DNA from: Latrodectus hesperus
Taxonomy: Eukaryota > Arthropoda > Arachnida > Araneae > Theridiidae
Reading direction: 5' to 3'
NCBI GenBank assembly: GCA_037975125.1
Contig: CM075860.1
Coordinates: 44,799,804 to 44,863,803 of the forward strand
Length of the DNA: 64,000 nt
Shown: positions 1 to 60,064 of the stretch, in pieces
Layout: each line of letters opens with the position of its first letter
Numbering within the stretch: position 1 is the stretch's first letter
Program-made: the position numbers and the translations under genes
The notes under the pieces: generated by a model
What the model was told of the DNA's origin: nothing
Databases searched by the model: none
What the model saw: only the letters and a program-made list of their open reading frames with translations

Positions 1-724
1 TAATTAGCTACAATTTTTTAAAAATTTATAGTATCATTAAAAATCTACCACGCCATTTTAATTCATTTTCACTATAAACATTAGATCAAAGTGTAACCCC
101 TAGTTGTGCTTATGCCAACACTTAAAAATTTTGAATTATCGGTCTGATTACTGTAGTTTGCTGTGTCAACCCTCAGAAAATTGATTTTAAGCTAGTTATT
201 CATTTTTATTAATATATTTAAGCAAATTAAACCTTTTTCTAAATTATTTTCATGTAATTTAATATTTTAAACCATTTTATACCTTAAATAATATATTTTA
301 CCATATAATTTAAATAATTTTAGCGTTTTTTAGTCTTTGCCACCCATTTTCATATGTAATAACTCTTTTTTATGACTTTTTGAGCCTGGATGTTTGTTTA
401 ACCTTTAATAACTTTTTCCGAGGAATACGCCTGACCACTTTTTAAGATTGTATCCCACCTAATTTAAGTCCAAATTGAATTTTTTAACATTTAATCTTAT
501 TAAACAGTATAATTTATACTTCTTAAGCAATATAAACATTAATAAACACTTAATTTCTATTTTATTACTCATTTTCTAGTTGGTCACCATATGGTCATAT
601 AGTGTGTAACTTCTAAAGTTTTTGTAATAATAACTTCGTTTTAACGCTAATATCTATAACTTATTGTACTAAATATATAATATAATTTACTTCATTATAG
701 TTGAATAGGAATAAAATTTTCTAA
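1..724 (+). other. 5' UTR (3' part) of LINE unit U1
   Basis: AT-rich leader without a credible ORF. It is visibly homologous to 56610-57483 of U11: both share CCACGCCATTTTAATTCA, a run containing AACCCCTAG, and TTATGCCAAC, in the same order, and both lead to an ORF1 ATG. This shows it is element leader and not unique host DNA. Any internal promoter would be further upstream. Confidence 0.7.
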
Positions 725-1888
725 ATGGCTTCCTTAAATGAATCTAGCCCCAAAAAATCTATATCAACCCCAAATCTTCTGAACCTTCAAGAGCACCCAA
801 AACTTCCAGATCACTCTCCTAGTGCTAACTCTGAATTGGATGTAGATAATCTAAATACTGAGCGTTCAATTCCATCTTCTAAGCTCTATGAATTACGGGA
901 TTTAGTAAATACTACTAAAAATAATAAATATCATCTTCCAAAAGAAATAAGGTCAAAATGCAATCAACTTATTCAAGATCTGCTAAATTTAAACCTCCCA
1001 ATAGGCAACCAAATAATCACAGCACAATCTTCACAACAAAGCTTGAATTTAAATGTTAATTTACAAAATTTACAAGCTAACATCATTCCAAATTTAATTT
1101 CCAAAATCGATGATTTAAGCAACAAGCTAGACGATAAAAATACTCAAATTGCTCATACAGATCCTAAAACACAAACAAAACTTTACAGTGATGCTGTCAA
1201 ACAAAACAAATCCTTAATCATCAAAAAATCAAAAGATCAGGATACACCCACTTTGTTAAGAAACATTGAAACCTCTATTCGTCCTGTAGCAATTTACAAC
1301 AGGAATACAGTCGTAGAAATCAAATGTAAAAATACTGAAGACATTAACTCTCTTAAAAAAACACTAATTGAAAATAAATTAACAGTTGAAGATAAAAAAA
1401 TTCAATTACAAAGAATAATAATCCTCAATATAGCAGAGAAATTTCCAAAGGAAAAAATTATCAATACTATAAAAGAAGATTTAAACATAACGAATGACGA
1501 TGAAAATATCAAAATTATTCATCATAGGAAAACACTAAGCAAATTTAATCTTTATAATTTAGTAATAGACATCCCAAAGGCACTTTCCAGAATTTTGCTC
1601 TCCAAAAAATTCCTGATAATTGGCCTAGCCAAATTCAAAATAGATAAATATAGAACAATTCGCCGCTGTCAGGGCTGTCAAGATTTTACCCATCATATAA
1701 ATGATTGTCCAACAAAAAAAATTTATTGTGCAAAATGTGCAAGATGTCACCAAACAGAAAAATGCAATGCCTCCAAATTCTTCTGCATTAATTGCATAGA
1801 GGCAAACAGAGATGGATTTAATTATCCAATAGAACATGCAGCGTTTGATAAAAATTGCCCCTCCTATCAATATTATTGCCAAAATTAA
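725..1888 (+). CDS. LINE ORF1, Gag-like nucleic-acid-binding protein (U1)
   Basis: 387 aa from an ATG at 725. It is the ORF1 of an R1/LOA-type LINE, expected to bind the element RNA and form the retrotransposition particle. The N-terminal 120 residues are polar and low in complexity, with a predicted helical stretch (NIIPNLISKIDDLSNKLDD). Three zinc knuckles lie near the C-terminus: CQGCQDFTHHINDC, CAKCARCHQTEKC and CINCIEAN followed by a spaced H and C. The stop TAA overlaps the ORF2 ATG as TAATG (1886-1890). The ORF appears intact. Confidence 0.85.
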   Translation: MASLNESSPKKSISTPNLLNLQEHPKLPDHSPSANSELDVDNLNTERSIPSSKLYELRDLVNTTKNNKYHLPKEIRSKCNQLIQDLLNLNLPIGNQIITAQSSQQSLNLNVNLQNLQANIIPNLISKIDDLSNKLDDKNTQIAHTDPKTQTKLYSDAVKQNKSLIIKKSKDQDTPTLLRNIETSIRPVAIYNRNTVVEIKCKNTEDINSLKKTLIENKLTVEDKKIQLQRIIILNIAEKFPKEKIINTIKEDLNITNDDENIKIIHHRKTLSKFNLYNLVIDIPKALSRILLSKKFLIIGLAKFKIDKYRTIRRCQGCQDFTHHINDCPTKKIYCAKCARCHQTEKCNASKFFCINCIEANRDGFNYPIEHAAFDKNCPSYQYYCQN

Positions 1889-4800
1889 TGTTGAAAAATA
1901 TGGCAAATTCCATCTCACTATCTTCAGACTCAACAAATACAAACTTACTAAATCTACATTTTTCAGAACTTAAAATCTTGCAAATTAATTTACAGAAAAG
2001 TAAATCGGCGCAAGCCCAATTACTTCAAACAATATCAAATAAAAACTACCACATTATTCTTACCCAAGAACCATATATCTTCAAAAAAGAACTTAGAGGT
2101 ATTCCACTTTCATTCAAATCTTATTATAACAAACAATCCCAAAATGCTAAATGCTTAACAATAATTAATGCACCCATAAACCCAATCTCCGTAATAACTG
2201 AAGATGAAATTATAGTCTTATGGTTAAATCTACAACCCCATCCCATTTTAATAATAAATGTTTATGCCTCCCCTTCAGGTGATATTAAACATACCATTTC
2301 AAAAATAAATCCACTTTTAGAAAAATTTAAAGACTGTCTAATTCTCTTAGCAGGCGACTTTAATGCCCAAAGTAATCTATGGAACTACCAATCAATAAAT
2401 AGCAGAGGTATACTCCTAGAAAACTTTATATCTTCCAACAATCTTAACTTAATAAATACTTTAAATTGTCAACCAACTTTTTCAGGCCCAAATGGATCAG
2501 GTTGGCCTGATTTAACTCTTTCAAATGACTTACTCTTCCCATACATACAAAACTGGAATGTTCTAGAAAACTTAACATGTTCTGACCATAATTATATTGA
2601 ATACGAAATTAAAAAATCTAGTCAAATTTATATTAATAAACGTTTTAACTGCAATAAAAATAAAACAAAATTTATCAAACACATAAAACAAAATTCAACA
2701 CAATTATTACAAAAAATAACCTCATGTAAAACAACTTCAGATTTAGACAACTTAACTGATAACTTAATAGGAATTTGCAAACAAAGTGCAGAAACAACTC
2801 TATCTTTCAGAAACCCAAATAAACCATTTAAATTAAAATGGTGGAATTCAAGTTTAAAAATTTTAAAAAATAAAACCAAAGCGTTACGTAGACGATTTAA
2901 AAAGTCACAAAACCAAGAAGAAAAGAAAAAATATATCATTGAATATAAAAAATCCCTAGCAACATATAAAAAAGAACTATTACAAGCAAAACTAAAAAGT
3001 TGGCAAATTTTCTGTTCAAACACCCAATCAGCATATGGCATACTAGGAAAAATAGCTAGTAATAAAATATTTTCACCAACTTCATTTATCCCTCTATCTT
3101 CAACGCAACTAAATTCAAATATTTCAAACAATATTTTCTCAGACCTTCTAAATTTTTCTTTTCCGGATGATCAAACAAATGCTTCAATAATCCCTTTAAC
3201 AACAAATACAAACCTAGACCCACCAATAACAAATATAGAACTAAAACATATGTCAAACATTTAAATAAAAATAAAGCACCTGGTACGGACGGAATTGATA
3301 ATGGTATTATTAAACTTATTTACGAGGCAATTCCAAAAATATTATTAAACTACTACAATCTTTGTTTGAAGTTGCAATACTTTCCAAAAGCATTTAAAAT
3401 AGGACAGATAATCTTCTTTTTGAAAAAGGATAAACCTCCAGACTCACCATCATCATACAGGCCAATTTGCCTTTTATCCGCACTTGGGAAAGTTTTGGAA
3501 AGAATAATTACTAATCGACTAAAATATTATCTTAATAAATATAATTACTTAAGTAACACTCAATATGGTTTTCGCTCAAATATCTCGACGGAACATGCAT
3601 TATTACAAATAAAGGAATCAATAAATAATAATAAATCTAAAGATAAATATACGGCTCTAATAAGCCTAGATATACAAAAAGCTTTCGACTCTCTATGGTG
3701 GCCGGGATTAAAAAACGCACTTAATGAACTAAAAATTCCAAGCAACCTTTTAAACATATTCTTTAACTTCTTATCTGATAGGCAATTAACTATTATACAT
3801 GATAATCTAACTATAACTAAAGCTCAATCTAGAGGGTGCCCACAGGGCTCAGTAAGCGGACCGATTCTTTGGAATCTTTATTATGATATTGTAAATAAAT
3901 ATAATTGGCCTCAACATACTAGAATAGTGACGTTTGCGGACGATACACTTTTTATTGTATCAGGTGAGACAAAGGAAAAACTCAAAACAAACAGCAATGA
4001 AACTTTGGCAATTTATGCACAACTCTGCGATAAATTAAAATTAACTGTATCACCATCAAAATCTAAAGTATTAATACTCCCAAAAAAATCTCATCATTTA
4101 AAGTATAATCCAAAAATAACTTTCAAAAATCAAAGTCTGAGACATACAAAAATTTTAAATTATTTGGGAATACAAATAGATAAAAAGCTCTCTTTTCTGG
4201 AACACATACGCTCTCTAAAGCCAAAACTAATTAGAATAGCACAAAGATTAAAATCCATGTCCACGTTAAACTGGGGTCTTAAAGGAAAAATAATTAAAAT
4301 TATTTATAAAACTGTTATTGAAAGAATAATCTTATACGGCGCAACCTTTTGGCTAGAACCAATTACTCAAAGAAAATGCAAACAACTTAAAACAATTGAA
4401 AGATACTTTACCCTTTTATTAACAAACAGTTTCCAAACAACATCAACTATGGCGCTGGAGCTGCTGGCAGGCATTCTTCCTCTGCCTCTTCAGGCAGAAA
4501 TGGAATTATTAAAATCAAACCTACTACAACATGGAAAAGAAATTAAAATTGACGATCTTCTCATCCCATCAAAAGTGGACAGAAAACCAAAAAAGGAATT
4601 GACTCACCCAGCAGATTGGCTCAAAGCCCTCCACATCTATACTAATCAAAAGCAAAATTCACAATATAAACCAAAAATTACTCCATGGAATTTTTATACT
4701 GACGGCTCTAAAACAGACGAAAAGGTTGGAGCAGCGGTTATAACATTCAAATACAATATTCTTCAAAATTCCCAACTTATTAAATTACATAAACTAAATT

Positions 4801-5567
4801 CCATTTATCAAGCAGAATCCTTTGCAATTAAATTCACCATTCTTCAAATACTGCAATATCAACAATTTCCGGCAACAATTTGGACCGACAGTAAATCAGC
4901 ATTACAAGCAATTCAAAATCCCTTTCCAGATTCATCTATCATCGCTGATATTCAAAAATTAATAAGAGAAAATCAAAATTGCTTAATCCAATTCTGCTGG
5001 GTGAGGGCTCACCAAGGAAATCAGGGGAACGAATTAGCAGACATCAAAGCAAAAGAAGCTGCAGAACTCCCGGAAAGCCAAATCACAAATATACCATGGT
5101 CCAGGGCACCGATTAAACTACTACTAAAGAAACAACAACTACAAAAATGGCAACATCAATGGTCATCAGCTGCAACAGGACGTTACCTTCATCATCTCAT
5201 CCCAACAGTTTCAACAGATGTCTGCTATGACGTTCCCCAAATAAATTTCTTCATCACAAATCATGGACCTTTTCCCGAATACTACAAAAAAATCGGAAAA
5301 GCGTCTTCAAATCTTTGCATCTGTAATTCACCAGGTACCGGCCTTCATTATATCCTAGACTGCCCATACACAAGTAAATTCCATCTTAAAAAATCCCACG
5401 TCCAAACTGACTCAAACTTCATAAATTACTGCATCAAGAACAACTACAGAAGGAGAGTGCTAATTCAACTCGGAATCTTTTTAATGTCCAGGGACTTGAC
5501 TCTCTGTCTGGATCCGACTTCTTCATCAAATCTAATGGACCTAGATTCCTCATCGGACTCAGATTAG
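1888..5567 (+). pseudogene. LINE ORF2 polyprotein (EN-RT-RNase H-CCHC), one frameshift (U1)
   Basis: ORF2 starts at the ATG that overlaps the ORF1 stop. Endonuclease motifs: LQINLQKSKSAQ, TQEPY, GDFNAQ near residue 155, and CSDH. RT motifs: LISLDIQKAFDSLWW, GCPQGSVSGP and FADDTLF. RNase H: YTDGSK, QAESFA, WTDSKSA and NELAD. A C-terminal CICN...H....C finger follows. The frame changes near 3250-3256, where a one-base loss turns the linker before the KAPGTDG motif into a stop at 3264; the downstream frame (visible as a separate ORF from 3366) is then open to 5567. This copy therefore cannot give a full polyprotein without recoding. Confidence 0.85.
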
Positions 5568-5817
5568 AATTTCTACATTAATTTTTCTATAAATTCTTTG
5601 TAAATAATGTAAATATTTTATACTTTTTTCTTTTGTTTAGATATTGTATTAATTTTTTTTAAATTGTTATTATACTTCTTTATCAACTACTCTTATAATC
5701 ACCAAGTTTGTTAATTATGTTACTTAAAAAAAAATATGTAATTATATTTCTTTATTAACTATTCTCTTAATAACCAAGTTTGCCAATTATGTTATTCAAA
5801 AAAAAAAGTATGTAACT
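5568..5817 (+). other. U1 3' UTR, AT-rich part
   Basis: Very AT-rich spacer with a short duplicated segment: ACCAAGTTTG and TATGTTA recur at about 5701-5740 and 5773-5805, spaced by roughly 70 bp. I see no ORF in it. Confidence 0.5.
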
Positions 5818-5873
5818 GAACTGTGATGCATTGATCTACTGCGTAGATCAATGCAGGCCTTATGAGCCCCACC
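5818..5873 (+). promoter_or_regulatory. Conserved 3' UTR RNA hairpin of A-family (U1 copy)
   Basis: Invariant GAACTGTGAT, then arms GCATTGATCTAC and GTAGATCAATGC around a TGC loop, then CAGGCCTTATGAGCCCCACC. The same frame recurs in U2, U3 (twice), U4, U5, U6, U7 and U9 with different but still complementary arms, so an RNA structure is being kept. Recognition by the element's own RT is a likely role by analogy with other LINE 3' hairpins; this is inferred. Confidence 0.75.
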
Positions 5874-5901
5874 ATATGTAAATAAATCAATAAAATAAAC
5901 C

Positions 5902-6036
5902 GGGTTGCGGTTCTCGCGTGGCACTCCTGACCCCCGTGGGGTGCTGACGGCTCTTCTGACGTGGTGGGAGCATAACCCGTTAACCCTTGGTATAGTTCGG
6001 GGTTCCCACTCGTCTATAATTTCTGTCTAGAGCAAC
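5902..6036 (+). promoter_or_regulatory. A-family 3' terminal structured module (U1 copy)
   Basis: Starts at GGGTTGCGGTTCTC a few bases after AATAAA and runs to TGTCTAGAGCAAC. Paired segments include GCACTCC with GGGGTGC, TGGGA with TCCCA, and TTGCTC-like with GAGCAA. There is no poly(A) or microsatellite tail; the next base begins U2. Confidence 0.75.
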
Positions 6037-6227
6037 TAACAAAGTCTCTTCGAATCCCCTCTCCTAAATCAAACTCTCAAATCAAACAAACTTGAAAATT
6101 CGTTCCTTCGCAATAAACTAAAGTGGATTTTGCTTGTTAAATTCGATTTCAATCGACAAACAAATTTCTAGTCTTTTATCAATCTCACCAACATCCCTAA
6201 CAATCTCATCATAGCCTTTTCTTCCCA
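6037..6227 (+). other. U2 leader (5' UTR, perhaps truncated)
   Basis: 191 bp between the U1 terminus and the U2 ORF1 ATG. It is much shorter than the roughly 1.7-1.9 kb leaders of U8 and U11 and richer in C (repeated TCAAATC/CTAAATC runs). It may be a 5'-truncated leader or a different leader type. I see no ORF in it. Confidence 0.5.
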
Positions 6228-7451
6228 ATGGATGATCAGATCCTTAATCCGCTTAGAAAATCATTATCATCTCCAAATCTCTCAAAGAACTTATCAATTC
6301 AACAGCCAGAAAAAGCCAGAGATACCCATAATGTAGATAAAATCAAGGAAATCCTAAAGGAATTAACAAAAATCATTACTTTGAAAAATAAAGATAAATC
6401 TTACCTTCCTCGAGATTCTCGCACCAAAGCATTAGATCTTATTGCATCTCTGCAAATTATAACATTTACAAATCAAGTCCAACAAGAACAAACTCAAGAA
6501 AAAGATTCCTTATCTAAAGAGATCAAAAATTTACAGAATGAAATAATTCCAAACTTGATTTCCAAAATTGATTCTCTGAATAAATCAATATCTTCAAGCA
6601 GCTCTCAAATCACAGAAAATTTAACCCCTCCAAAACTATATAGTGATATAGTCAAAGCTGAAAATTCAATTATCATAAAAAAAACGAATAACTTAAAACC
6701 CTTAGAAAAACTAAGGACAATAGAAACCGAAATATGTCCAAAAGGCATATATAACCGCAATGGACACATAGAAATCAAATGTAAAAACCAGGAAGATCTA
6801 TTGAAACTAAAAAGAACCCTGACGGATAAAAATATCCCTATTGAAAATAAAAGGATTCAGACAAGAAGAATAATTATTTTGAACACTACAGCAAATATAA
6901 CTGAACAAAAAATTCTCACGGCATTAGCAGACAAAATTAGTATTTCGGATATCTCAAATCAAGTAAAAATACTAAACCGTCGCAAAACTTTAAGTCCTTA
7001 CAATCTATACAATTACATTTTGGAAGTGCCAAGACAATTAGTCCATAAGATCTTAGAAAAAAATTTTCTCTACATTGGTCTAGCTAAATTTAGATTGGAC
7101 TTCTTCAATCCAATTCCAAGGTGCCAAAAATGTCAAAACTTCAGACATAAAACTTCAGACTGCAAATGCACTAATTTCTACTGCGCCAAATGTGGCAACC
7201 GCCACCAAACAGAAAAATGTACTTCTAAAAACTACAAATGCATAAATTGTGTGGAAGCCAATCATAACGGTGCTAATTTCCAAATAGACCATCCTTCTTA
7301 CGACCCAAATTGTCCAGCATTTAGAGAATACGTTTATGAAAATGATAATGATTACCCTCAAAACTCGCACCAAAACTACCCACCACTCTCAAATCCTCCT
7401 AGCTTCCCTCAAAGCCAATTTCAAGCACCACACTTCCAACCACATTTCTAA
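6228..7451 (+). CDS. LINE ORF1, Gag-like zinc-knuckle protein (U2)
   Basis: 407 aa from the ATG at 6228. A polar N-terminus contains a short coiled-coil-like stretch (NEIIPNLISKIDSLNKS). A mid region resembles the RNA-binding folds of LINE ORF1 proteins. Three zinc knuckles follow: CQKCQNFRHKTSDC, CAKCGNRHQTEKC and CINCVEANHNG with a later H and C. The tail is rich in P, Q, F and H and is not shared by the U1 protein. The stop and the ORF2 ATG abut (TAAATG, 7449-7454), which suits termination-reinitiation. The ORF is open throughout. Confidence 0.85.
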   Translation: MDDQILNPLRKSLSSPNLSKNLSIQQPEKARDTHNVDKIKEILKELTKIITLKNKDKSYLPRDSRTKALDLIASLQIITFTNQVQQEQTQEKDSLSKEIKNLQNEIIPNLISKIDSLNKSISSSSSQITENLTPPKLYSDIVKAENSIIIKKTNNLKPLEKLRTIETEICPKGIYNRNGHIEIKCKNQEDLLKLKRTLTDKNIPIENKRIQTRRIIILNTTANITEQKILTALADKISISDISNQVKILNRRKTLSPYNLYNYILEVPRQLVHKILEKNFLYIGLAKFRLDFFNPIPRCQKCQNFRHKTSDCKCTNFYCAKCGNRHQTEKCTSKNYKCINCVEANHNGANFQIDHPSYDPNCPAFREYVYENDNDYPQNSHQNYPPLSNPPSFPQSQFQAPHFQPHF

Positions 7452-10400
7452 ATGTCTTACCAACAGCATTATTCAAATTCATCAGCATCTAATATAACCA
7501 ACGTCCCAAACCTTTCAACTTATAACTTTTCAACACTTAACTTTCTACAGATTAACCTACAAAGGAGCAAGTCAGCCCAATCTGCATTAATTAAAACAAT
7601 CCAAGATAATAAATTTGACATTATCCTAACCCAAGAGCCATATGTCTACCATAACGAGATAAGAGGAATCCCACTTAAATGGAAAAATTACCATTGCAAA
7701 AACTCAGAAACTCCGAAATGTTCGACAATCCTAACAGCACCTTTAAATCCAATCGCTTTGTTAACGGATCCAGATCTAATAATTCTTTTTTTCAACTTAA
7801 ACCCAAGCCCATTATTACTAATAAATGTTTATGCAGCACCTCAAAAACCATTAAATAGTATTCTTGACAAATTATCTCCATACCTACAATCCTATAAAAA
7901 TACAGCAATCCTTATCAGCGGAGACTTCAACTCACAAAACATATTATGGAAATACCCCTCAAACAATCAAAGAGGACATCAATTAGAATCATTCATAACT
8001 TCAGAAAATTTAAATCTTATCAATATAAACAATGAAACCCCAACTTTTGTTGGCCCAAACGGCTCAGGCTTTCCTGATCTTACTTTTACTAACGATCAAC
8101 TACTACCAAATCTAATAAACTGGCAAGTCTTAGACGAAGAATCTTGCTCGGATCACCGATACATAAGCTTCCAAATTAGTGATTCTAACTCCATTCAATT
8201 TAACAGACGTTATAACTCAAATCATAATAGTTCAAAATTTATAAAATTAATGCGTTCAAACTCATACAAATTAGCTCAAGATTTAGAACTTTGCATAACT
8301 CATCAAGATTTAGAAGACTACACCAAGAATTTTATCCAAATATGCAAATCAAGTGCAGAAAAATCATTCAAATTAAAAAAACCTAAAAAACAATTCCAAT
8401 TAAGGTGGTGGAACAAAAATTTGCAATTACAAAAAAATAAAACTCGCGCACTTCGTCGACGCATAAAATCAACACAAGATCCAAACTTAAAAAAAGAATT
8501 CGTACAAAAATATAAAAAATCTCTGGCCCTTTACAAGAAAGAAATCATAATCAGTAAGCTCAATAGCTGGAAACAGTTTTGCACTAACGCTAAATCACCC
8601 TTTGGAGTATTGACCAAATTAGCCACGAAAAAACTCTTTATTCCAACTTCTTTTGTCCCCCTATCTTCCTCCCCACATTCCCCAAATATTACAAACACAA
8701 TCTTCAAAGACCTTTTAGAAGCCTCTTTTCCCCCAAACCCACCATTGCAAGAAATAGTCCAACCAACAACAATAATTTAGAACCCCCTTTTTCAAATACG
8801 GAACTGGAAATAGTTATAAAAAATCTAAACAACTCGAAAGCACCGGGTATAGACGGTCTGGATAACAAAATAATTAAATTAATCTTTATAGCCATCCCAA
8901 AATTACTCCTAAAATTCTTCAACATTTGCTTCTCCAAATCTTACTTCCCAACCTCATTTAAAGAAGGGCAAGTAATCTTCTTTCATAAAAAAAATAAAAA
9001 TCCAACCTCCTACCGACCTATTTGCCTCTTGTCTGCCATAGGAAAAGTACTAGAACGCCTCCTAATAAATAGGTTAAAACACTTCTTAGAAATCAATAAA
9101 GTTTTAAGTAAAAATCAATACGGCTTCCGATCCAACATCTCAACCGAACATGCTCTGCTAACATTAAAAAATCAAATCTCAGAAAATAAAGACAAAGACT
9201 TGTACATGGCAATAGTGAGTCTGGATATAGAGAAAGCCTTTGATTCAGTCTATTGGCCAAAATTAAAAACGGCTCTAAATAATCTAAATCTCCCAACTAA
9301 TATTCTCCTTACTTTTTTCAACTTCTTATCAGAAAGAAAATTCACGGTGATTCACGATAACACGAATTTGTCAATCCCTCATGTTCGAGGTTGTCCACAA
9401 GGTTCGGTCAGTGGACCAATCTTGTGGAACATCTACTATAACATTATCTCAAATTATAATTGGCCAAACCACTCAAAAATTTTAACATTCGCTGATGACA
9501 CCCTTTTTGTCATAACAGGAAAAACAAAAGAATCCTTGAAATTAAACTGTAACCATACCCTTAATATTTTTTCAAATCTTTGTTCAGATCTAAAATTAAA
9601 TCTAGCCCCTCATAAATCTAAAATACTTATATTAGGTAAAAAATCTCACTCACTAAAATATAACCCCAGGATAACCATTAATAACACTAGCATAAATCAT
9701 GTGAAAGTTTTAACATTTCTTGGCATACAAATTGATAAAAAATTATCGTTTCTCCCACACATCAGATCTTTAAAAAATAAAATAGTATCTACAACACAAA
9801 TAATTAAATCAATGACTAATCTAAATTGGGGCCTGAGAGGCAAACTCCTAAAAATTATATACCAAACTATTACGTTGAGACAAATTCTCTACGGTATCCC
9901 ATTTTGGATATTCCCTTTAACCACAAGAAAAATTAAACAGCTACAAATATTGGAACGATTCTTCTTGACGTTAATAACCAAACCTTACAGAACAACTCCT
10001 ACAGCCGGCCTCGAAATATTAGCAGGCGTGCCTCCTCTCCAAATTCAGGCTAAAGCAGAAGCCACGAAATCCCTTATAATCCAGCACCAACAAGCATATC
10101 AACTGGACACTGTTTTCATCCCATCATCCTCTTGTGATCTTCGTCCCCACAAAGATCAAACTCATCCGGCTTCATGGCGTTCAAACATCTACATCTTCAA
10201 TCTCACCCCAAACAACTCCCAGCAATCCTCCCAACCACAGACCAACTACAATATTTACACTGACGGATCAAAGACAGCAGACAAGATAGGAGCAGCCATG
10301 GTAGTGTATCTTAACTCTCAACTTATCCACCATCAACTATTTCATCTAAACAAATTTAACTCCATCTTCCAGGCGGAGGCCTTTGCCATCCTCAAATCAA

Positions 10401-11493: not shown

Positions 11494-11549
11494 GAACTGT
11501 GATACAGAGGTCTACTGCGTAGACCACTGTAGGCTTCTATAGCCCCACC
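11494..11549 (+). promoter_or_regulatory. Conserved 3' UTR RNA hairpin (U2 copy)
   Basis: GAACTGTGAT, arms TACAGAGGTCTAC and GTAGACCACTGTA around TGC (one A/A mismatch), then AGGCTTCTATAGCCCCACC. The arm sequence differs from U1 but the pairing is kept. Confidence 0.75.
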
Positions 11550-11583
11550 AATGTAAAAGTTTTTCTTTCAAATAAAAACAGTC

Positions 11584-15023: not shown

Positions 15024-15050
15024 ACTGTATATTTGGATAAATAAAAAACC

Positions 15051-19332: not shown

Positions 19333-19334
19333 TT

Positions 19335-49241: not shown

Positions 49242-49255
49242 CCGAAAGAGCCTAG
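49242..49255 (+). repeat. Target-site duplication of B4, right copy
   Basis: CCGAAAGAGCCTAG, identical to 43631-43644. Confidence 0.92.
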
Positions 49256-50180
49256 AACTAAAGCTATAAATCTAATAATAACTTTACAAAACTACCCCTG
49301 GCCTCAAATAAATCAGCAATCACAGCAATCATCACCTATAATATCAGAAATACAAAACCTACAGCAAAAAAATTATCCCAGAGTTAACAAATAAAATTAA
49401 TACACTAACCCAGTCGTTGCAGAGTTTTGAATTAAACAGAGATATTAGGGCAAACGAAAATGTAAAATCCTATAGTGATATAATCAAAACAGATAACTCA
49501 TTGATAATTAAAAAATCCAAAATACCAAAACCGTGGGAAGAACTAAAAAAAATAGAAACCGAGATCCAGCCCAAGGGAATATATAATCGGCATAACTACG
49601 TAGAAATAAAATGTAAAAATAAAGAAGATACCATTAAATTAAAAGAACAACTATTGGAAACTGAAACACCGGTTGAAGAGAAAAAATCCAAACCAAGAAA
49701 ATTATAATATTAAATGTACCAAATTCAATTACTAAAGAAAAAATATTAACTGCAATTTCAGAAAAACTTCAAACAGATATTACAGAAGAACAAGTCAAAA
49801 TACTTCAACATAGAAAAACCTTAAGTCAATTCAACCTATATAATTATATATTAGAGATCCCAGACAATATCGCATTTAAGCTTCTGGAAAAAAATCTGAT
49901 ATTTATAGGACTTGCGAAATATAGAATTAGTATATTTAAACCCATCTTCAGATGTCACAAATGCCAAAATTTTACTCATTTGACTAAGGATTGCAAATGC
50001 AAAAATAGCTACTGTGCTAAATGCGGCAAAACTCATGAAACGGATAAGTGTAATTCGAATAAAATGGGATGCATAAATTGTATTGAAGCAAACAGCAACG
50101 GTTCAAACTTCCAAATAGATCACCCGGCATATGATCTAAGATGCCCAGCCTATAAAGAGTACCTAAAAACAACAGTTTAA
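49256..50180 (+). pseudogene. LINE ORF1 C-terminal part, two homopolymer frameshifts (U8)
   Basis: Continues U8 ORF1 after B4. The frame changes at a run of A near 49365 (one base too many; the reading then ends in QQKNYPRVNK) and again at an A run near 49685 (one too few; ends in KSKPRKL). The last part is open to 50180 and carries CHKCQNFTHLTKDC, CAKCGKTHETDKC and CINCIEANSNG with a later H and C. The two indels are opposite in sign, so only the segment between them is out of frame. Confidence 0.82.
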
Positions 50181-50230
50181 AGCTAATAATAATTATAATT
50201 AATACTAACAGAATAAAAATAAATAATAAT

Positions 50231-53200
50231 ATGCAAAGTAAGAGTAATACAGAAAAATACAAATTAACTATAGATGAATCTAACCCAAATTTAACAAAAA
50301 TCAACTTCAATAAACTCAAATTCCTTCAGGTTAATTTACAAAAAAGTAAATCAGCTCAATTACAACTAACCAAAACCGTAACAGATAATAAATACGATAT
50401 TATTCTAGTGCAGGAACCCCATGTAATACAACAAAAAATTAGAGGGATACCAACAAAATGGAAAATATATTATGATAAAAATTCAGATTACCCAAAGTGC
50501 GCAACCATAATCACAGCTCCGATTAATCCACTATTAATTTCGACACAACCAGACTTAATTACAGTTTATTTAGATCTAAAACCAAATCCAATTTTACTAA
50601 TAAATATCTATGCTGCTCCCCTTCAAAATTTAAACAACTTACTGAATAAAATAGCCACAGAATTAAATAAATATAAAAACATAGCAACCTTAATAGCAGG
50701 AGACTTCAACTCGCAAAATATCATCTGGAATTACCCTACAAATAATTACAGAGGAAATATATTGGAGGCCTTCATATCAACGCATAACTTAAATATCGTA
50801 AATATAAATAATAATATTCCTACTTTTGTAGGACCGAATGGTGTGGGATATCCAGATCTAACTTTAATAAATGATAAACTGCTACAATATATTACTAATT
50901 GGAACGTACTCGAAGAAGAATCCTGCTCTGACCACAAATATATAAGTTATGAATTAAATAACAACAATACAATATGCTTCAATAGAAGATACAACACAAA
51001 TAAAAACAGGAATAAATTTAAAAAAGCCTTAGTTGAAATAGCAGATATTCTTTCACCTAAATTAGCTAGTTGTAGAACAAACCAAGAATTAGATACATTA
51101 ACAGATCAATTAATAAGTAAATGTAAAAACAATGCAGAAAAATATTTCCCAATTAAAAAACCAGATAAACCAAACCAAATAAAATGGTGGTGTACCGAAC
51201 TACAGATACTGAAAAACAAAACAAAAGCATTACGTAGAAGGTTTAAAAAAACAATAGAAACAGAGACTAAAACTTTATATATCATTGAATATAAAAAATC
51301 TGTAGCTAAATACAAAAAGGAAATAATTAAAAATAAACTAAGTAGCTGGAAAAAATTCTGTTCCGATTATAACAACCCCTATGGAATACTAACGAAATTA
51401 ACAACTAACAAACACATTAATCCCACAACTTATGTCCCTCTAACAACTAACCAGATATCAATAAACCCAGCAAATAATATATTCCAAGACCTTATGAAAC
51501 ATTCATTTCTAGACAATCTACAAGATCCCGAAGATATTAGTCCAATAACTAAAAATGATGCACAGGACCCAATGTTCACAAAAATTGAAATAAAGATTGT
51601 TATTAAAAATTTAAATGGCTCAAGGGCTCCCGGCATGGATGGAATCGATAACAAAATAATAAAAATGATGAACCAAGCAATGCCAAACTTTATACTGGAC
51701 TATTTTAACAAATGCTTAAAGCTGTGTTACTTTCCAAGGGCTTTCAAAGAGGGACAGGTGATTTTCTTCATCAAAAAAGGCAAAGACCCGAAGGACCCCA
51801 CATCATAAAGACCTATTTGTCTCCTCCCGGCACTGGGAAAAGTACTTGAAAGACTTATCACAAACAGGCTAAAATACCATCTGGAAACAAAGAAATATTT
51901 CAGAGATAACCAATTTGGATTCCGATCAAAATTGTCTACCGAACACGCTTTAATAAGAATCAAAAAATTAATAGAAGAAAATAAAAATAAAGACCTATAC
52001 ACTGCACTTATAAGCTTAGACATTAGGAAAGCCTTTGATTCCGTCTATTGGCCCAAACTAAAAACGGAGCTAAATGGCCTAGATATTCCTTTCAACATTT
52101 TATCTACCTTTTATAGTTTTTTGTCAGACAGGAAAATAACAGTTTTACATGATAACACAGCAATCACTAAACCACATGTCAGAGGATGCCCTCAGGGGTC
52201 TATAAGCGGACCTATTTTCTGGAACATTTATTTCAACAAAATCTCAAACTATAAATGGCCTGAACATTCAAAAATTACCACTTTTGCAGATGACACTTTA
52301 TTTGTAATATCTGGAAATACTAAAGAACAAATTAAAAACAATAGCAACCAAACTCTGGAACTATTTAACAGCCTTTGTAAAGATCTTTTTATTACAATAG
52401 CACCAAACAAATCTAAAGTTCTGTTAATAGGAAAAAAAAGTAAAGCCCTTAAATATAACCCTAGAATTGCAATGAATAACATAAGCTTAACTCATGTCAA
52501 AACACTTCTTTACCTGGGATCCCACATCGATAATAAATTATCCTTCTTGCCACATATTAGTACGATCAAACAAAAAGTAATTAAAACAGCTCAAAAAATA
52601 AAAGAAATGGTTTCCATAAACTGGGGGATAAAAGGAAAAATTATAAAAATAATATATCAAACAATAATACTCAGACAGGTCCTCTATGGAGTCTCCTTCT
52701 GGTTAGAACCTATTAATGTTAGAAAAATTAAACAACTTCAATCTATAGAAAGATATTTTCTCCTGCTGGTCACAAAGGCCTATAAAACTACGCCAACTGC
52801 TAGCTTAGAAATCTTATCCGGTACCCCGCCAATCCAGCTCCTGGCCGAATTGGAATCTGATAAAGCCAAAATACTACAACACAGACAGAAAGTTAAAATA
52901 GATGATGTATATATCCAGGGGGAGAGTTGTGAAGATCACCCGAATAAAGACGAAACACACCCGGTGACTTGGTCACGAAATCATCACCTATACTACCATC
53001 AGGGCAAAAAGGAACTAACCCATTCTCCTCCTCAGTCCCTTTGGAACATATATACGGATGGATCCAAGATTGAAAATAGCACTGGGGCAGCAATGGTGGT
53101 ATACAACAAAACAACTACAATAGCTTCCTTTAAATATAAATTAAATCCATACAATACCGTTTTCCAAGCAGAAGCCCTGGCTATACTAAAAGCAATAGAA

Positions 53201-53923
53201 TACATAAAGCAGGAAAAATTAACAACAACAAACATATGGTCTGACAGCAACTCGGTTATATTAGCTCTACAGAATCCTTATCCTAAAAATTACCAAATTA
53301 AAGAAATTCAATCATCGCTGAAAACGACACCAAACAGGATCAATATAATTTGAACAAAAGCACACGTAGGAAATATGGGGAACGAGGCAGCAGACCGGCT
53401 AGCTAAGGAAGCTACCAAACTATCCAATCAGGAAGCAGAAAATTTACCTATACCAAAATCCTTTATAAAATTCAAATTGCATCAAATACTAATTAAAAAT
53501 TGGCAAAACTACTGGAATTCAATAGAGACTGGCAGAACAACTTATAAATTCTTCCCTACAGTGGATACAGATAAATGCTCGGATAATCCATATATAAACT
53601 ACTTATTAACCAACCACGGCCCGTTCCCCATATACTACGCCAAAATAAACAAAGCCAAAACAAATATATGTATCTGTGGAGAAACCGGTACAGCTGCCCA
53701 CTATCTGCTCCAGTGCCCACAAACAACAAATTATCATCTCAAAAAACCTCAAACAATGACAGAAGTAGACTTCATAAAATATTGTATTACCTGCCCACAC
53801 CGGAAAAAGAAAATCAACGAACTGACTGAATTCTTAATAAACATGGATTTAAAATTATGCAGGGATCCATCCGTAAGGGCTGAGGAAAACGAAGACTTTA
53901 CAAGTGAAGAGGAATGGAGCTGA
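50231..53923 (+). pseudogene. LINE ORF2 polyprotein with two in-frame stops (U8)
   Basis: A single reading frame of about 1230 codons with two nonsense codons: TAA at 51806-51808 in place of Y in SYRPICLL, and TGA at about 53351 in place of W before TKAH of RNase H. Otherwise it has all parts: LQVNLQKSKSAQ, VQEPH, GDFNSQ and CSDH; SLDIRKAFDSVYW, GCPQGSISGP and FADDTLFV; YTDGSK, QAEALA, WSDSNSV and NEAADRLAKEA; and CICGETGTAAHYLLQC. There is no frameshift. It groups with U2, U7 and U9. Confidence 0.87.
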
Positions 53924-54283
53924 AACAACAAAATCTTGTAGGAACTCTTGGTACCACGCCTCTGCCTTTTAAAACTTTGACTTTTACTCAAGGATTTTTA
54001 ATGGATTATTTTAAAGAAATCGTAGAGTTTTAAGATTATAAGTTATACACTTTTTAAGAGATTTTATTTTGGTTTTACATAATTCTGATGTTTTATTGTC
54101 ATTATTGATTTAATTGATTTTAAAATTGTAATAATTTTAATTGTTAAATAGTTATAATATTTTAATTGTTTTAACAAACTGTAATGGATCCTTAGGGATT
54201 GGAACCTGCTCTATTAATGCATACTGTGTTATGTCTGAGTAGATGAATTGTAATCTAATTAATGAATTAATAAAGAAATAGCT
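53924..54283 (+). other. U8 3' UTR without the conserved hairpin
   Basis: AT-rich, with several TTTTAA runs. GAACTGTGAT and its paired arms, present in every other unit that reaches this region, are absent. AATAAA is still present shortly before the terminal module. Confidence 0.65.
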
Positions 54284-54425
54284 GGGTTGCGGTTCTCGGT
54301 GGGGGGCGCCCCTGGGTCTCCTGGGGGTGTTTCTTGCTCTGGAATTAACGATGGGGGATACAACCCGAAAACCAAAGGTTTAGAACGGGGTCCCCCCACG
54401 TTCATTGTTTTATGTCTAGAGCAAC
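54284..54425 (+). promoter_or_regulatory. A-family 3' terminal structured module (U8 copy)
   Basis: GGGTTGCGGTTCTCGG to TGTCTAGAGCAAC. AACGATGGGGGA pairs with TCCCCCCACGTT; CGCCCC pairs with GGGGTG; TTGCTCTGG pairs with CTAGAGCAA with a mismatch. Confidence 0.77.
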
Positions 54426-54910
54426 CCAAAATCCCCTGGTCCAAAGCAGCAGTTAAATCAATCATCAAGCAATCAACAACAACAAAATGGCAACAACTCT
54501 GGAATTCCGCACAAACAGGCCGCCATATTTACACCTTCTTTCCAAATGTTTCATCAGAGATCTGCCACGACATTCCCCAATTAAATTTTATTATAACCAA
54601 CCATGGCCCGTTTCCAACTTATTTCTTCAGAATCAACAAATCAACTTCAGACCTTTGCATCTGTGGCAACACTGGATCAAGCTATCATTATATTTTTGAC
54701 TGTCCAGAAACTCGCATCTACCATCTTAAAAAACCCACTAATATCTCGCAAATAGAATTTCTTAAATTCAGCCTAAAATGTCATCATCGGAAAAAGTTAC
54801 TTATCAACCTAATGAACTTCCTTATAAAAAAGGACCTATCTCTCTGCAAACACCCGATTTCATCAGTACCAACAGAAGAGTTAGTCTCTAGTGACAGTGA
54901 TAGTGATTAA
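54426..54910 (+). pseudogene. LINE ORF2 C-terminal fragment (U9)
   Basis: Reads PKIPWSKAAVKSIIKQ and onward through NHGPFPTYFFRINKS and the CICGNTGSSYHYIFDC finger to an acidic SSDSDSD end. The RNase H active site is upstream of the truncation and missing. A longer ORF starting at 54287 includes the U8 terminal module read in frame and is not real. Confidence 0.83.
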
Positions 54911-54946
54911 ACATCCACTCTCATCAAATAAATGTGATTTATTCTC

Positions 54947-55120
54947 GACAAGTGACTCTCACAGAACCTACAACAGTAACAACTCTATTTGATCAACGTG
55001 CTTTTGTTCCCGACAAGTGACTCTCACAGAACTTCCAACAGTAACTACTCTCCTAAGATCAATGTGCTTTTGTCCTCGATAAGTGACTCTCACAGAACCT
55101 CCAAAGCAACTGTTCAATGT
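54947..55120 (+). repeat. Three tandem 65-66 bp repeats in U9 3' UTR
   Basis: GA(C/T)AAGTGACTCTCACAGAAC starts at 54947, 55012 and 55078, followed each time by C/T-rich sequence with CAGTAAC or AGCAAC and GTGCTTTTGT. Found in no other unit here. Confidence 0.85.
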
Positions 55121-55256
55121 TCCACCCTCCATTTTATTCATCTGTATATATTTTCTAGCTTAGTTTAGTTTTAGTTAGTTTAGTTAGTTTAGTTATTAAA
55201 AATTTTTCTTTTTTCTGTATTATACTATGTAAATAAATTAGTCATATACTGTAATA

Positions 55257-55311
55257 GAACTGTGATACAGTGGCCCACTGCGTGGACCACTGTAGGCTTT
55301 AAAGCCCCACC
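55257..55311 (+). promoter_or_regulatory. Conserved 3' UTR RNA hairpin (U9 copy)
   Basis: GAACTGTGAT; arms TACAGTGGCCCAC and GTGGACCACTGTA around TGC (one C-A mismatch); AGGCTTTAAAGCCCCACC. Confidence 0.75.
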
Positions 55312-55341
55312 ATCTGTAAATTCTTTTTAAATAAAAAAGTC

Positions 55342-55484
55342 GGTTTGCGGTTCTCGGGGGGGGCGCTCCTGGGTTCCCTGGGGGTGTTCCTTGCTCTGGT
55401 TCGATGATGGGAGGATACCAAACCTGTTAACCTTTGGTAAAGTCCAGGGTCCTCCCACATCAATATGTCTATGTCTAGAGCAAC
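55342..55484 (+). promoter_or_regulatory. A-family 3' terminal structured module (U9 copy)
   Basis: GGTTTGCGGTTCTCGGGG (one change in GGGTTGCGG) to TGTCTAGAGCAAC. GATGATGGGAGGA pairs with TCCTCCCACATC. Confidence 0.76.
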
Positions 55485-55548
55485 CCTTACCTGATAACCA
55501 ATAGGTACAGTACAGGGCTCTCTCCTCTCGTTGTCTGTCTAGAGCAAC
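55485..55548 (+). mobile_element. A-family LINE unit U10, 64-bp terminal remnant
   Basis: Lies between two copies of TGTCTAGAGCAAC (55472-55484 and 55536-55548). It matches only the last part of the terminal module (ACCTGATAACC, GGTAC, CAGGG, CTCTC). It is the shortest unit and shows that truncation can remove all but about 64 bp while the 3' end stays exact. Confidence 0.82.
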
Positions 55549-57483
55549 CCAGTGTTTACTACAGCTCCCAAATTATTGTTTAAACCAAATTCTTCAGCTA
55601 AATTTATTTCATTCCTAAACTATAAACATCCCAGCTTCAAATTAATACCAATTTTATCACCTAACTCGCAATAATTAAAAAATTATAGACAATTTAAATC
55701 AGTGTTGTTTAGTGCAGTGGCCATTAATGGCGGACGCCTGTTAGGGCTAACTGAAATTACATCAAAATAACCAAAAAATTACTCCTGGATAAATTTCATG
55801 GACTAATAAACTCTCCAGCAACATCCTAGCATCGAAACAACACCATCTGCATCCATTAAGTGGCTCCGGATCCGAGGTTGGTCATCTTTAATTTTGCTTC
55901 ACTGCTCCATAGAGTTAACATTAAATCCATCTTAATATATTTTTTTAAAATTTTTTCTAAAACGTTAATTAAATTAAAACCACTCTATTTCTATCATAAA
56001 ATATCTATATTTTGCTCCGCCATAGTTTGTTAAACTCAAAAATTCCTTAAATTTAAATTATTAAGCTTTATTTTCGTAATATGTAAAATTTTGTCTAAGT
56101 GAAAATTTTTTAAGAATTTTTTAAATTTTTTCTATTAGTATTTTATTCTTAAAACCACTTCAATTCATAAGTCAATAGTCTAAATTTATCTCCGCCATAG
56201 TTTTTTAATCAATTAATCAGCTATTTTTGGAGTAATAATCTTACTTTTTCAAAATTTTAAAATTTTTCAAATTATTCAAACTTTGGGAATTTTTTAAATT
56301 TTTTCTACTAGCCCTACACTCTTTAAACCACACTCATTTTGAAGAGCTTCAAAAAATCTTTTCTCCGCCACCAATTTCATTAAAATAGTCCAATTACTTC
56401 AGATTTTATAGACATAAATGCAAATTTTTACTTCAATGGCGGACAGCTTTTTTCTGAATTTTTCAATGTAAACATTGACTTTGTTGTATTTTTAATAATA
56501 CTAATTATTCTCTCCTTGTTATAAAATATTTTTTCTTATATAATTTGAACATTTTTATACAGATTAAAAGTGGTTTCATTCGTCTATCTTAATTCATTAA
56601 TTTTCTACAATTTTTCAAAATTTTATTGTATCATAATAAATTTACCACGCCATTTTAATTCAGTTTCATTGTAAACATTTGAACTAAGTGCAACCCCTAG
56701 CCCTGCTTATGCCAACCTTTAATGTTTTGAATATTGAGTTCCACTGATCGATCCCTGCTGAGCCAACCTCAAAATTTTTGAATATTTAGCTTATTTAACT
56801 AAATAAACCGATTTTTTGAGTTTCTATCATAAAATTTTAATATTCTACAACCTACCTATAACAAATACTTTATTTTTACACTAAAAATTCTAATAATTAA
56901 ACCAATATTACAAATTAATTAAATAAAATTCCCTCTGCCACCCAAATCTCAAGCTCTAAGCAATATAATAAACCCACCATAAAGTCAAAGTGCCTATATT
57001 AATTCTTCCGTATTATTATTCTTAAAAAATTAACCCTGACCAACTTTTGGACATTTACCATGTGGTTCTGTTAATTATTATTATATAAAACTTGCATTAG
57101 CACTTTTTGAGACAAAAGCCTCATTAAATTATAATTCCCTGCATTGCTCCTTTGTTTAACTTTTACAACTTTTTTATAAGGAATATTTTTATCAACTTTT
57201 CAAGATTGTATTCCTTACCAAATTATCTAAAAAACTAAAATCTTGCTTTTAAATACTCTTTTAAATTATCTTTAATACTAGTTTAAATTAAAATAATTAC
57301 TAAAATACTCAATAACACAATTATAACTTTTTCTTGAGTTGGTCACCCTATGGACAGGCATATCGTAACTTCAAAACTATAAAACCTATCCTTTCCATTC
57401 CAACACTAAATAGCATAAAATATTTAAAATATAATATAATTGCTCCCCATTAATATAACAAAATTTCCAAAACCCCTTACATA
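55549..57483 (+). promoter_or_regulatory. U11 leader (5' UTR) with about 174-bp repeats and CCGCCAT boxes
   Basis: AT-rich. CTCCGCCA recurs at 56015, 56190 and 56363, each preceded by similar AAACCAC...T-rich sequence, giving a diverged tandem repeat of about 174 bp. ATGGCGGAC occurs in the other orientation at about 55727 and 56436. CCGCCAT is the YY1/Pho core, a factor known to bind the leader of human L1. The last 850 bp match the leader of U1. A promoter role is inferred. Confidence 0.6.
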
Positions 57484-58638
57484 ATGGATACTAATTTAGT
57501 AACATCACCTATAAAATCAATTTCAACACCGAATTTATCAAACCTACAGCACTCAACTAATGAAAATGATACTTCAAATGACAAAACTGTCGATGAATCA
57601 ACAACACAAAATAAAACTATAAAAAATCCAATTGCTTATAAAAAGCTACTAGATTTACAAGATCTGTTGAACACCAAAAGAGATTGAACCACATTACCTT
57701 CCAAAGGAAATCAGAATTAAAGGCATTGAAATTTTACAGGATTTATTCAAAATGTACTGGCCAGAAGTAAATCCAAAAGACATAAATTCTACCGATCAAA
57801 TTACAAAAGATCTCAACGATAACCTTCAAAATTTACAAAATAATGTTATACCAACCCTAATCTCAAAAATTGATAATCTCAATCATAAACTGGACAACAA
57901 GGAATCTATTCAAAACTCAAATGAAAACAATGCAGAAACAAAACTTTACAGCGAAGTCCTGAAACAAAAAAACACAATTATAGTTAAAAAATCAACAGAA
58001 AATGATGCTACAACTCTTCAAAACATAAACACAAATCTAAGACCTGTAGCTATTAAAAACAGGAATAGGATCATAGAAATAAATTGCAAAAACATCGAAG
58101 ATGCTAACACACTTAAAAGAACACTCCAAGATAATAAATTTAAAATAGAAGATACAAAAATTCCACAACAAAGAATTATAATCTTAAACATTACAGAAAA
58201 TTTTTCCAAAGAAAAAATTATTTCCACATTAAAAGAAGATTTAAATCTCACTGATGAAGAAAACTTACTGAAAATAATACACTTTCGAAAAACAATAACA
58301 AGCTTTCTAATTTGATTCTAGATGTACCCAAATCATTAGCGAAAATGATCTTATCAAAAAAATACCTAATTATAGGTTTAGCAAAATTCAAAATTGACCA
58401 ATATAAGACAATTCGAAGATGTCAACTATGTCAAGACTTTAGTCACACAACACCAAACTGCCCAACGAAGAAAATTTACTGTGCTAAGTGCGCAAAATGT
58501 CATGAAACCAAAAATTGCAAATCCACTAAACTGTTTTGTATCAACTGCATAGAGGAAAATAGGAATGGTGCAAATTATAATATAGAACATGCTGCCTACA
58601 ATTATAATTGTCAATCTTATCATAATTATTACCAATAA
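57484..58638 (+). pseudogene. LINE ORF1 with two frameshifts (U11)
   Basis: ATG at 57484 (MDTNLVTSPIKSISTPNLSN, close to U1 ORF1). The frame ends at 57687 after LLNTKRD through a small indel, resumes with HYLPKEIR, runs to 58315, and shifts again where the usual FNLYN has lost bases. The last frame, overlapping by a few bases, carries CQLCQDFSHTTPNC, CAKCAKCHETKNC and CINCIEENRNG with a later H and C, to the stop at 58638. Not functional. Confidence 0.83.
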
Positions 58639-58654
58639 TAAACACAAATTAAAA

Positions 58655-60064
58655 ATGGCAAATACACAAACAAATAACAATTTTAAAGTACTTCCAAATA
58701 ATCTAAATTCTAACTTGCTAAATATTAACATTACTGAAATTAAAGTTTTACAAATTAATCTTCAAAAAAGTAAATCGGCGCAAGCGCAACTTTTACATAC
58801 GATTGCTAATGATTAATACCACATAATCCAAACACAGGAACCGTACATATACAACAAAGATTTAAGGGGAATTCCACTATCTTTTAAAACATTTTATAAT
58901 CAACACTCTCAGAAAGCTAAATGCCTTACAATTATTAATGCCCCTCTAAATCCAATTTCAATCTTAATAGAAGATAATATAACTATTATATGGCTAAATC
59001 TTTTACCGCACCCACTACTGTTAATCAACATCTACGCACCCCCAAATGATAATATAAATTTAGTTCTAGATAAAATAAAAACATACTTAATCAAATATAA
59101 AGACAGCCTAATTCTAATAACGGGTGATTTTAACGCCCAAAACACCATTTGGAATTATCTAACAATAAATACTAGAGGTATTATAACCGAAAATTTCATT
59201 TCCTCAAATAACCTTAACTTAATAAACACACTAAATTGCCCACCAACATTTACTGGCCCCAATGGCATAGGGTGGCCAGATTTAACAATTACAAATGACC
59301 AACTTTTCCCTTATGTACAAAACTGGTCAGTCTTAGACAATTTAACTTGCTCTGATCATAACTACATAGAATTCAAAATAACAAAACCAAGTTTTATTAG
59401 TTTTAACAAACGCTTTAATAGTAATAAAAATAGATCAAAATTTATGAAACAAATAAAAACCCACAAAAATCATCTAAATAACCTAATTAACTCTTGTAAG
59501 ACGACAACAGAATTAGATAAGCTAACTAATGAATTAATTAACATATGCAAAGAAAGCGCTGAAAAAACTCTTTCATTTAGAGACCCAAACAAAAAATTCA
59601 CTCTCAATTGGTGGAATGATAATCTTAAAATCTTAAAAAACAAAACAAAAGCATTAAGAAGACGATTTAAATCAACACAAAATCAGGAAGAAAAAAATCA
59701 TTATATAAAACAATTTAAAAAATCACAAGCGATTTATAAAAAAGAAATCCTTTTGGCTAAATTAAATAGTTGGCAGAACTACTGCACTAAAACAAACTCG
59801 GCATATGGCATTCTAAGCAAAATTGCTACGAAAAAAATTTTTAAACCTACAACATTTATACCGCTAATCTCAACACAACAAAATTGTAATATTTCAAACT
59901 CAATCTTTACAGAACTTTTAAACTATTCTTTTCCTGACGACCCCACAAATATTCCCATTGAGCCACATACAACAAACAATAAATTAGATCCACCTTTTAC
60001 AACTACTGAATTAAAATATACAATCAAACAATTAAACAAGTCAAAAGCACCTGGCCTGGATGGC
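58655..60064 (+). pseudogene. LINE ORF2 N-terminal part, one stop, cut by B5 (U11)
   Basis: ATG at 58655 (MANTQTNNNFKVLPNN). An in-frame TAA at 58814-58816 interrupts the endonuclease after TIAND; the same frame is then open for more than 400 codons: TQEPYIYNKDLRGIP, GDFNAQNTIWN, CSDHNYIEF, FTLNWWNDNLKILKNKT and NKSKAPGLDG, where B5 begins. The RT palm and RNase H are not in this window. The C-terminal residues of the ORF that runs to 60217 are read from the B5 tail. Confidence 0.84.

Follow-up and report, generated by a model that had tools for sequence, protein, structure and literature searches.

R1 elements are long interspersed nuclear elements (LINEs) specific for ribosomal DNA (rDNA), which insert at the R1 site of the 28S ribosomal RNA (rRNA) gene in sense orientation with a target duplication of 14 bp, and tandem R1 copies are known. 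R2, which like R8 and R9 of the R2 clade targets rDNA, uses another endonuclease type, and the R1 and R2 sites lie further 3' in the 28S gene than about position 1240. TRAS and SART belong to the R1 clade and insert into telomeric TTAGG repeats. McGurk and Barbash, in 2018, are said to have described R1 arrays and double insertions in Drosophila, where a duplicated target permits insertion beside an older copy. LINE arrays are found in other settings as well: HeT-A, TART and TAHRE form head-to-tail arrays with 5' truncation at Drosophila telomeres, and Zepp is a LINE array of green algae. Excerpts from two reports describe several lineages per host for the site-specific TRAS and SART elements (PMC10088271), and terminal LINE-related arrays of a fungus gnat, arranged head to tail with 5' truncation (PMC12051294). 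Here we describe a LINE array in the black widow spider Latrodectus hesperus, contained in a stretch of 64,000 bp (the window; C11:44,799,804-44,863,803 of the host assembly, which comprises 1.64 Gb in 2912 contigs, C11 being a scaffold of 84.1 Mb). The elements of this array, called A, are very probably diverged LINE lineages with an R1/TRAS-type endonuclease that insert antisense at one site of the 28S gene, and whose insertions stack.

As the original prediction had stated, the window holds eleven A units (A1-A11) in one orientation, arranged head to tail and all on the + strand. The units are LINEs with two open reading frames (ORFs), ORF1 and ORF2, the second encoding an N-terminal APE-type endonuclease, a reverse transcriptase (RT) and RNase H, and they are closed by the 13-mer TGTCTAGAGCAAC. 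Exact copies of this 13-mer end at 6036, 11726, 15189, 15595, 18982, 38346, 54425, 55484 and 55548 on the + strand, which are exactly the nine complete 3' ends that had been predicted, and none occurs on the - strand of the window; with up to three mismatches there are 25 matches in the window versus 12.7 expected, and none of 100 shuffles reached 25. The base that follows does indeed fall at a different point of the element each time: units start in the leader (A2, A8, A11), ORF1 (A6), the endonuclease/linker region (A3, A7), the RT (A5), RNase H (A9) or the 3' untranslated region (UTR; A4, A10), and A1 starts left of the window. The claim that no host DNA lies between units is borne out directly at five of the nine joins (A3, A5, A6, A9, A10), where homology to the interior of other units begins within the first 5 bases after the 13-mer; homology begins 94 nt into A4, and A2, A8 and A11 start with leaders that have no alignable relative within the window, the 5' ends of A8 and A11 being backed by loci outside it. 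The array is also interrupted: five copies of a second LINE, B, break into it, and the A6-A7 join is absent, A6 being cut in its 3' UTR with two B copies between. The series of 13-mers extends beyond both edges of the window, because at least 17 of them on the same strand, one attached to 28S, run from C11:44,758,562 to 44,899,050 (about 140 kb) among the matches listed.

Across the host assembly, the exact 13-mer was found 68 + 41 times, versus 3 + 1 for the reversed pattern, with clusters on C4, C11, C17 and several small contigs (as seen from the 100 of 109 places listed). One copy on C1 (L001, 88.26 Mb) is an empty site, which reads GTCCTGC-TGTCTAGAGCAAC-CAACACC without interruption in the direction antisense to the rRNA and has 28S on both sides, within a 28S fragment of 180 bases. 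At five array ends (L008, L012, L013, L016 and L027, which between them lie on C4, C11:78.6M, C159, C321 and C556), an A unit and the 13-mer are followed by 28S from the same base; compared with L013, the other four have 28S flanks that are 98.3-100% identical over 345-1403 bp, and L013 itself contains a 5.8S gene ahead of its 28S portion. Just upstream of this 5.8S-28S pair, L013 also carries another LINE-like ORF (1246-4698, +) that is 29% identical to A ORF2. A is antisense to the rRNA, and its site corresponds roughly to position 1240 in the Rfam LSU model, an estimate that ignores gaps. Genome-wide, the 13-mer followed by CAACACC occurs nine times: at the empty C1 site, at the five array ends, at two places on C17, where CAACACCT comes between the end of A and B sequence, and once on C16. 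The opposite border, with 28S upstream of the 13-mer, occurs at four places, namely the empty site, C11:44,795,319 and C159:22,947, both continuing into a 5'-truncated A ORF2, and C937:56,577, continuing into a leader that is 71% identical to that of A11 from base 504. The 28S piece at C11:44,795,319 sits 4.5 kb left of the window, and the first 1.5 kb after it is A. A fixed 28S position is the insertion target of A, since five array 3' ends and five left boundaries (these three and two on C4, described below) join 28S at the same target.

To see what lies beyond A ends more generally, we examined the sequence downstream of 55 13-mers, 46 of them outside the window (window and fetched loci, with one double fetch omitted; several fetched loci are copies of one another). 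A followed within 2 kb in 41 cases, 28S in 6, B in 2 and none of these in 6, where 8 of the 41 are window units, which match themselves, and one of the 6 28S cases is the empty site; outside the window (n=46) the counts are 33, 6, 2 and 5. The six cases with none are L002-L005, places with a single 13-mer that have neither A sequence downstream nor the 3' fold described below, and a 52-bp and a 64-bp unit, both too short to score; the five outside the window are thus four that are not A ends and the 52-bp unit. The two A ends followed by B are inverted copies. In L006, L007, L013/L016, L026, L027, L028 and L039, recognisable A begins 14-640 bases on, and the sequence before it is presumed to be leader or UTR. 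Among the loci read, A ends are thus followed by A, 28S or B, with no case observed in which unrelated DNA came next, although in several of them A homology begins only after 100-640 bases. The C17 arrays at 5.90-5.92 Mb and 6.24-6.27 Mb have matching joins but are oppositely oriented, which reflects either inverted duplication or an assembly effect.

The units had been taken for one LINE family, a description we reject: A comprises several lineages, because the ORF2 pieces of eight units are only 40-64% identical in pairwise protein comparison (A4, A10 and A11 stand outside this table), with N-terminal ORF2 pieces reaching 68% for A1-A11 and 71% for A1-A3. These lineages keep the 13-mer in common, and the roughly 15 bases before it vary; judged by their sequences, then, long-separated LINE lineages share one 13-base end. 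In a quick tree, six A units form one clade against 120 database matches, most of them unnamed. Among 7990 candidates scored, the nearest protein relative is unnamed (39% identity) and the closest with a name belongs to Sarcoptes scabiei (30%), a match that shows only that A is an animal-like LINE. Neither A relatives nor the two-part end pattern (0 matches) were found in viral_contigs and genome_contigs. The solved structures closest to the A endonuclease are TRAS1 and R1, and for the N-terminal ORF2 piece of A8 the TRAS1/R1 endonuclease gave the only solved-structure matches at E up to 0.001; the earlier pointer to site-specific R1-group LINEs was therefore well placed.

The sequences show that TGTCTAGAGCAAC immediately follows the element 3' ends and that the arrays are flanked on the outside by 28S. 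With the insertion site written in element sense as GTCCTGC^TGTCTAGAGCAAC^CAACACC, the endonuclease would nick the rRNA-sense strand after ...TCTAGACA, a new strand would be primed at the nick from the structured 3' RNA of the element, and the other strand would be cut 13 bp away, duplicating the 13-mer. In this way every insertion would restore the target and allow another element, whether complete or 5'-truncated, to land beside the last; a restored 13-bp target would explain why the units are head to tail with exact 3' ends and varied 5' ends. At 3 of 56 ends, a partial repeat of 4-6 bases of the 13-mer stands just before it, which fits synthesis starting at that border.

The last ~220 nt of A fold into a conserved RNA domain, exemplified by A2 (11493-11726, +; its 13-mer, the 28S target sequence, is 11714-11726, +). 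The same fold is found at 5817-6036, 14967-15189, 15371-15595, 18763-18982, 38119-38346, 54201-54425 and 55256-55484, and a further copy is cut at 23599. Its consensus energy is -113 versus -54 +/- 4 for 100 column shuffles, and 21 pairs have two-sided changes, a number that none of 500 shuffles equalled. A8, which was kept out of the model, scores 113 bits, and in 38 other loci (several of them mutual copies) the model finds 38 matches, 33 of which end exactly at the 13-mer. In a terminal helix, AGAGCAA of the 13-mer pairs with a conserved internal TTGCTCT, with no two-sided changes. The UTR also has an internal core like the rRNA-sense sequence GGTGTTGGTTGCTCT, which spans the insertion point: across 41 distinct UTRs the mean best match is 11.2 of 15, above that of every other 15-mer tried, all drawn from 180 bases of 28S surrounding the site (mean 8.8, sd 0.5). 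Single UTRs match at 8-14 of 15, the best match lies elsewhere in the UTR for 6 of 44, and part of the conservation of the core may come from the fold itself, so that we regard the target-like core as a lead, not proof. In an excerpted report, 28S-like stretches of some R2 3' UTRs were proposed to stabilise target binding (PMC5035012). A piece of the conserved A 3' RNA that resembles the rRNA-sense sequence spanning the insertion point, GGTGTTnnTTGCTCT, might pair with the other strand of the target, making target choice partly RNA-guided and letting lineages pile up at the restored site as a directional record, a suggestion that we consider quite unlikely to be correct as it stands. Separately, the 5' end of L026, AGAACCGTAACC (in A8, 38347-38358, AGAACCGTAACT), is the reverse complement of an invariant 3' UTR motif, GGTTGCGGTTCT (for example at 11585-11596), with one U-G pair. 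This complementarity, which was read by eye, suggests that the 5' end of the element RNA could pair with the 3' UTR.

As a weaker part of this account, new units most likely enter the array at its 28S-proximal (5') end. Three observations point this way. L037 and L038 have a left flank in common (99.5% identity over 1.5 kb), but different A units follow the 13-mer. In the window, disabling mutations number 2 in 18.0 kb to the left of the first B versus 8 in 10.6 kb to its right (p=0.007), and the B insertions all lie right of 23.7 kb (p=0.02-0.04). For the damage count, the events of each unit were taken from its best-scoring reference, which removed an ORF1 frameshift of A1 (seen with the A2 reference only) and extra events of A3, A8 and A11 (seen with poorer references only); one A7 frameshift was dropped as an artefact of joining the A7 parts. 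A test on mean position gave p=0.004 with all ten events and p=0.011 with two ORF1 shifts of A8 counted once.

A number of points weigh against this account of A. The direction tests are post hoc, both splits having been picked after the data were seen, and the rank correlation of damage with position in the window is not significant (p=0.36), for which reasons the direction of growth is only a lead. The 13-bp duplication is not constant, because at two left boundaries on C4, one leading into a full-length unit (L029) and one into a unit truncated in the leader (L032), 28S stops at GTCCTGC and A follows directly, with the 13-mer absent; overall it is present at 3 of 5 left boundaries with 28S and absent at 2 of 5, the left boundaries and array ends that were read belonging to different insertions. 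Not all array ends are independent: L013 and L016, with join and unit length in common, are probably copies of one locus, the shared join and 660-bp unit being those of C321 and C556. For the window's own array, the 28S piece stands 4.5 kb to the left, with the first 1.5 kb after it read, and on the right side B interrupts the last unit read within its 13-mer. Finally, the 13-mer may belong to the element RNA, and the pairing of AGAGCAA with TTGCTCT would fit an element-encoded end.

This last point leads to the main rival explanation, in which A is again a LINE specific for 28S, but one that carries TGTCTAGAGCAAC at the 3' end of its own RNA, where this copy of the target would anneal to the primer, and target duplication plays no part; arrays would then grow because each later RNA, copied starting at its final base, is joined to the 5' end of the element before it. 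The two C4 boundaries without the 13-mer are as expected if this were so, as is the pairing of TTGCTCT with terminal AGAGCAA, which occurs in most lineages and in A8, outside the model. Yet three left boundaries have the 13-mer between 28S and A, which an encoded end does not predict, and the terminal helix lacks two-sided changes, and we judge this alternative unlikely. An array produced by unequal crossing-over or segmental duplication, in place of repeated insertion, is very improbable. Six of 41 distinct downstream sequences are A joins present at two or three loci, and one C17 array resembles an inverted copy of the other, so that we accept duplication for some copied stretches; but the units compared are 40-64% identical in protein and have different start points, which makes them separate insertions of which duplication only later copied stretches, and we reject duplication as the source of the basic array.

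Two further readings place A in a chromosome-structural role, and we consider both extremely unlikely. One is the proposal, put forward in the original prediction, that the family extends chromosome ends as in Drosophila, with elements attached to a receding end. Head-to-tail order, exact 3' ends and different 5' starts would all be expected of such an array, the left side appears younger, and A has a strong strand bias, with a GC skew of -0.23 versus -0.06 in B. We nonetheless reject it on the grounds that the window lies mid-scaffold, at 44.8 of 84.1 Mb, and that array ends and left boundaries are in 28S; in addition, both array orientations occur within one scaffold (C11, C17), and the four G-quadruplex-like motifs of the window are all on the sense strand, contrary to the Drosophila pattern. 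The companion proposal, that A repeatedly inserts at its own terminus, is right in form, except that this terminus consists of 13 bp of the 28S gene and so is the target site. The other reading is a centromeric or similar LINE array like Zepp, whose contact with 28S is incidental. The position of the window near the middle of a large scaffold and the clustering of 13-mers in few places would suit it, but the 13-mer is exactly 28S and five array ends enter 28S at the same base. Repeated antisense insertion of diverged lineages at one 28S site is the preferred explanation.

A1 (1-6036, +) has a leader, ORF1 (725-1888), ORF2 with a frameshift near 3244 and a 3' UTR, and presumably starts behind the 13-mer at C11:44,798,693, some 1.1 kb outside the left edge of the window. 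A2 (6037-11726, +) has a short leader, ORF1 (6201-7451), ORF2 (7452-11131, with a frameshift near 8740) and a 3' UTR. A3 (11727-15189, +) starts inside ORF2, in the endonuclease/linker region, with RT and RNase H open and a 3' UTR in which the first (5') hairpin is present twice, the second copy at 14841-14942. A4 (15190-15595, +) is a 3' UTR only, of 406 bp; A5 (15596-18982, +) runs from the RT region through RNase H and a 1.9-kb 3' UTR; and A6 (18983-23743, +) starts in ORF1 and has an open ORF2 of 1238 codons (19326-23042) and a 3' UTR cut by B. A7 is in two parts, the first starting in the endonuclease/linker region (29548-30497, +) and the second holding the 3' UTR and terminus (36131-38346, +). 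A8 is likewise divided into a 5.1-kb leader with the start of ORF1 (38347-43645, +) and the remaining ORF1, ORF2 with two in-frame stops, and the 3' UTR (49242-54425, +). It begins AGAACCGTAAC, similar to L026, and we take it as a complete unit with a 5.1-kb leader because the starts of A8 (AGAACCGTAAC), L026 (CCC followed by AGAACCGTAACC) and L029 (TGAACCGCC) are related. A9 (54426-55484, +) runs from RNase H through the 3' UTR, A10 (55485-55548, +) is a 3' end of 64 bp, and A11 (55549-60063, +) has a near-complete leader, starting some 30 nt inside the full-length 5' end, ORF1 and the start of ORF2, where it is cut by B. The A8 leader contains 130-bp tandem repeats in two arrays (39223-39786 and 41434-41995) inside a 2.2-kb duplication, and the A7-A8 join with the start of this leader was found again on C69 (L010). 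The motif ATGGCGG occurs near the 5' ends of A8 and A11, at 38558, 55727 and 56436, with three more on the opposite strand, and resembles the YY1-type sites of LINE promoters.

B provides an internal control for these joins, which are unlike its insertions. Its five copies interrupt the A array in both orientations and end in (CAAC)n, with 15-bp target duplications in both cases where two flanks are present, and B is an ordinary LINE. These two are long copies, one in A7 (30498-36130, +; duplication CCCCACCTAAGAGGC) and one in A8 (43646-49241, -; duplication GCCGAAAGAGCCTAG). Two 5'-truncated copies adjoin each other, one with its (CAAC)n 3' tail in the A6 3' UTR (23744-26889, -) and one (26890-29547, -) that is 98% identical to the copy at 60064; the latter lies in A11 and runs past the window end (60064-64000, -). 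At 23743-29548, the A6 3' UTR, the two B copies and the start of A7 abut without the expected duplications, and the A6 terminus is gone.

Compared with described systems, A resembles R1 in being an rDNA-specific LINE with an R1-type endonuclease and, apparently, a short target duplication (13 bp, at three of five left boundaries). It is not a canonical R1 insertion, since it occupies another 28S site, near Rfam LSU 1240, in antisense orientation, and it further differs in its RNase H domain, to our knowledge absent from typical R1, and in having several lineages per array. From the R1 tandems of Drosophila, A is set apart by its long-diverged lineages and by the 140 kb that same-strand 13-mers cover on C11, at least one piece of 28S lying among them. 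A shares rDNA targets with R2, R8 and R9, and differs in its N-terminal APE-type endonuclease. TRAS1 is closest to the A endonuclease among solved structures, and A is likewise site-specific, with the difference that it targets 28S rDNA in place of TTAGG; the window contains no TTAGG array, and an Rfam scan of the window gave no matches. The arrays of HeT-A, TART and TAHRE share head-to-tail order and 5' truncation with those of A, which differ in standing away from a scaffold end, in joins without poly(A) and in their 28S flanks. In L037 and L038 (about 1-1131), a LINE related to A, with about 40% identity at the ORF2 C-terminus, lies antisense and ends ...CTTCCTGTTTT immediately at another 28S position, 382 bp from the A site; these loci are copies and count as one case, and the element probably represents a sister family that targets a 28S site of its own. 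We know of no described R element with the 28S position and orientation of A, and the site, the antisense orientation and the stacking of several lineages may be new.

With these results, what had been suspected to be a telomere system is clearly one that targets ribosomal genes. Competing lineages have left in each array a layered record of their use of one site, in which target choice and insertion order are testable. The conserved 3' RNA with its target-like core bears on how LINEs find their sites, and is relevant to retroelement-based gene insertion.

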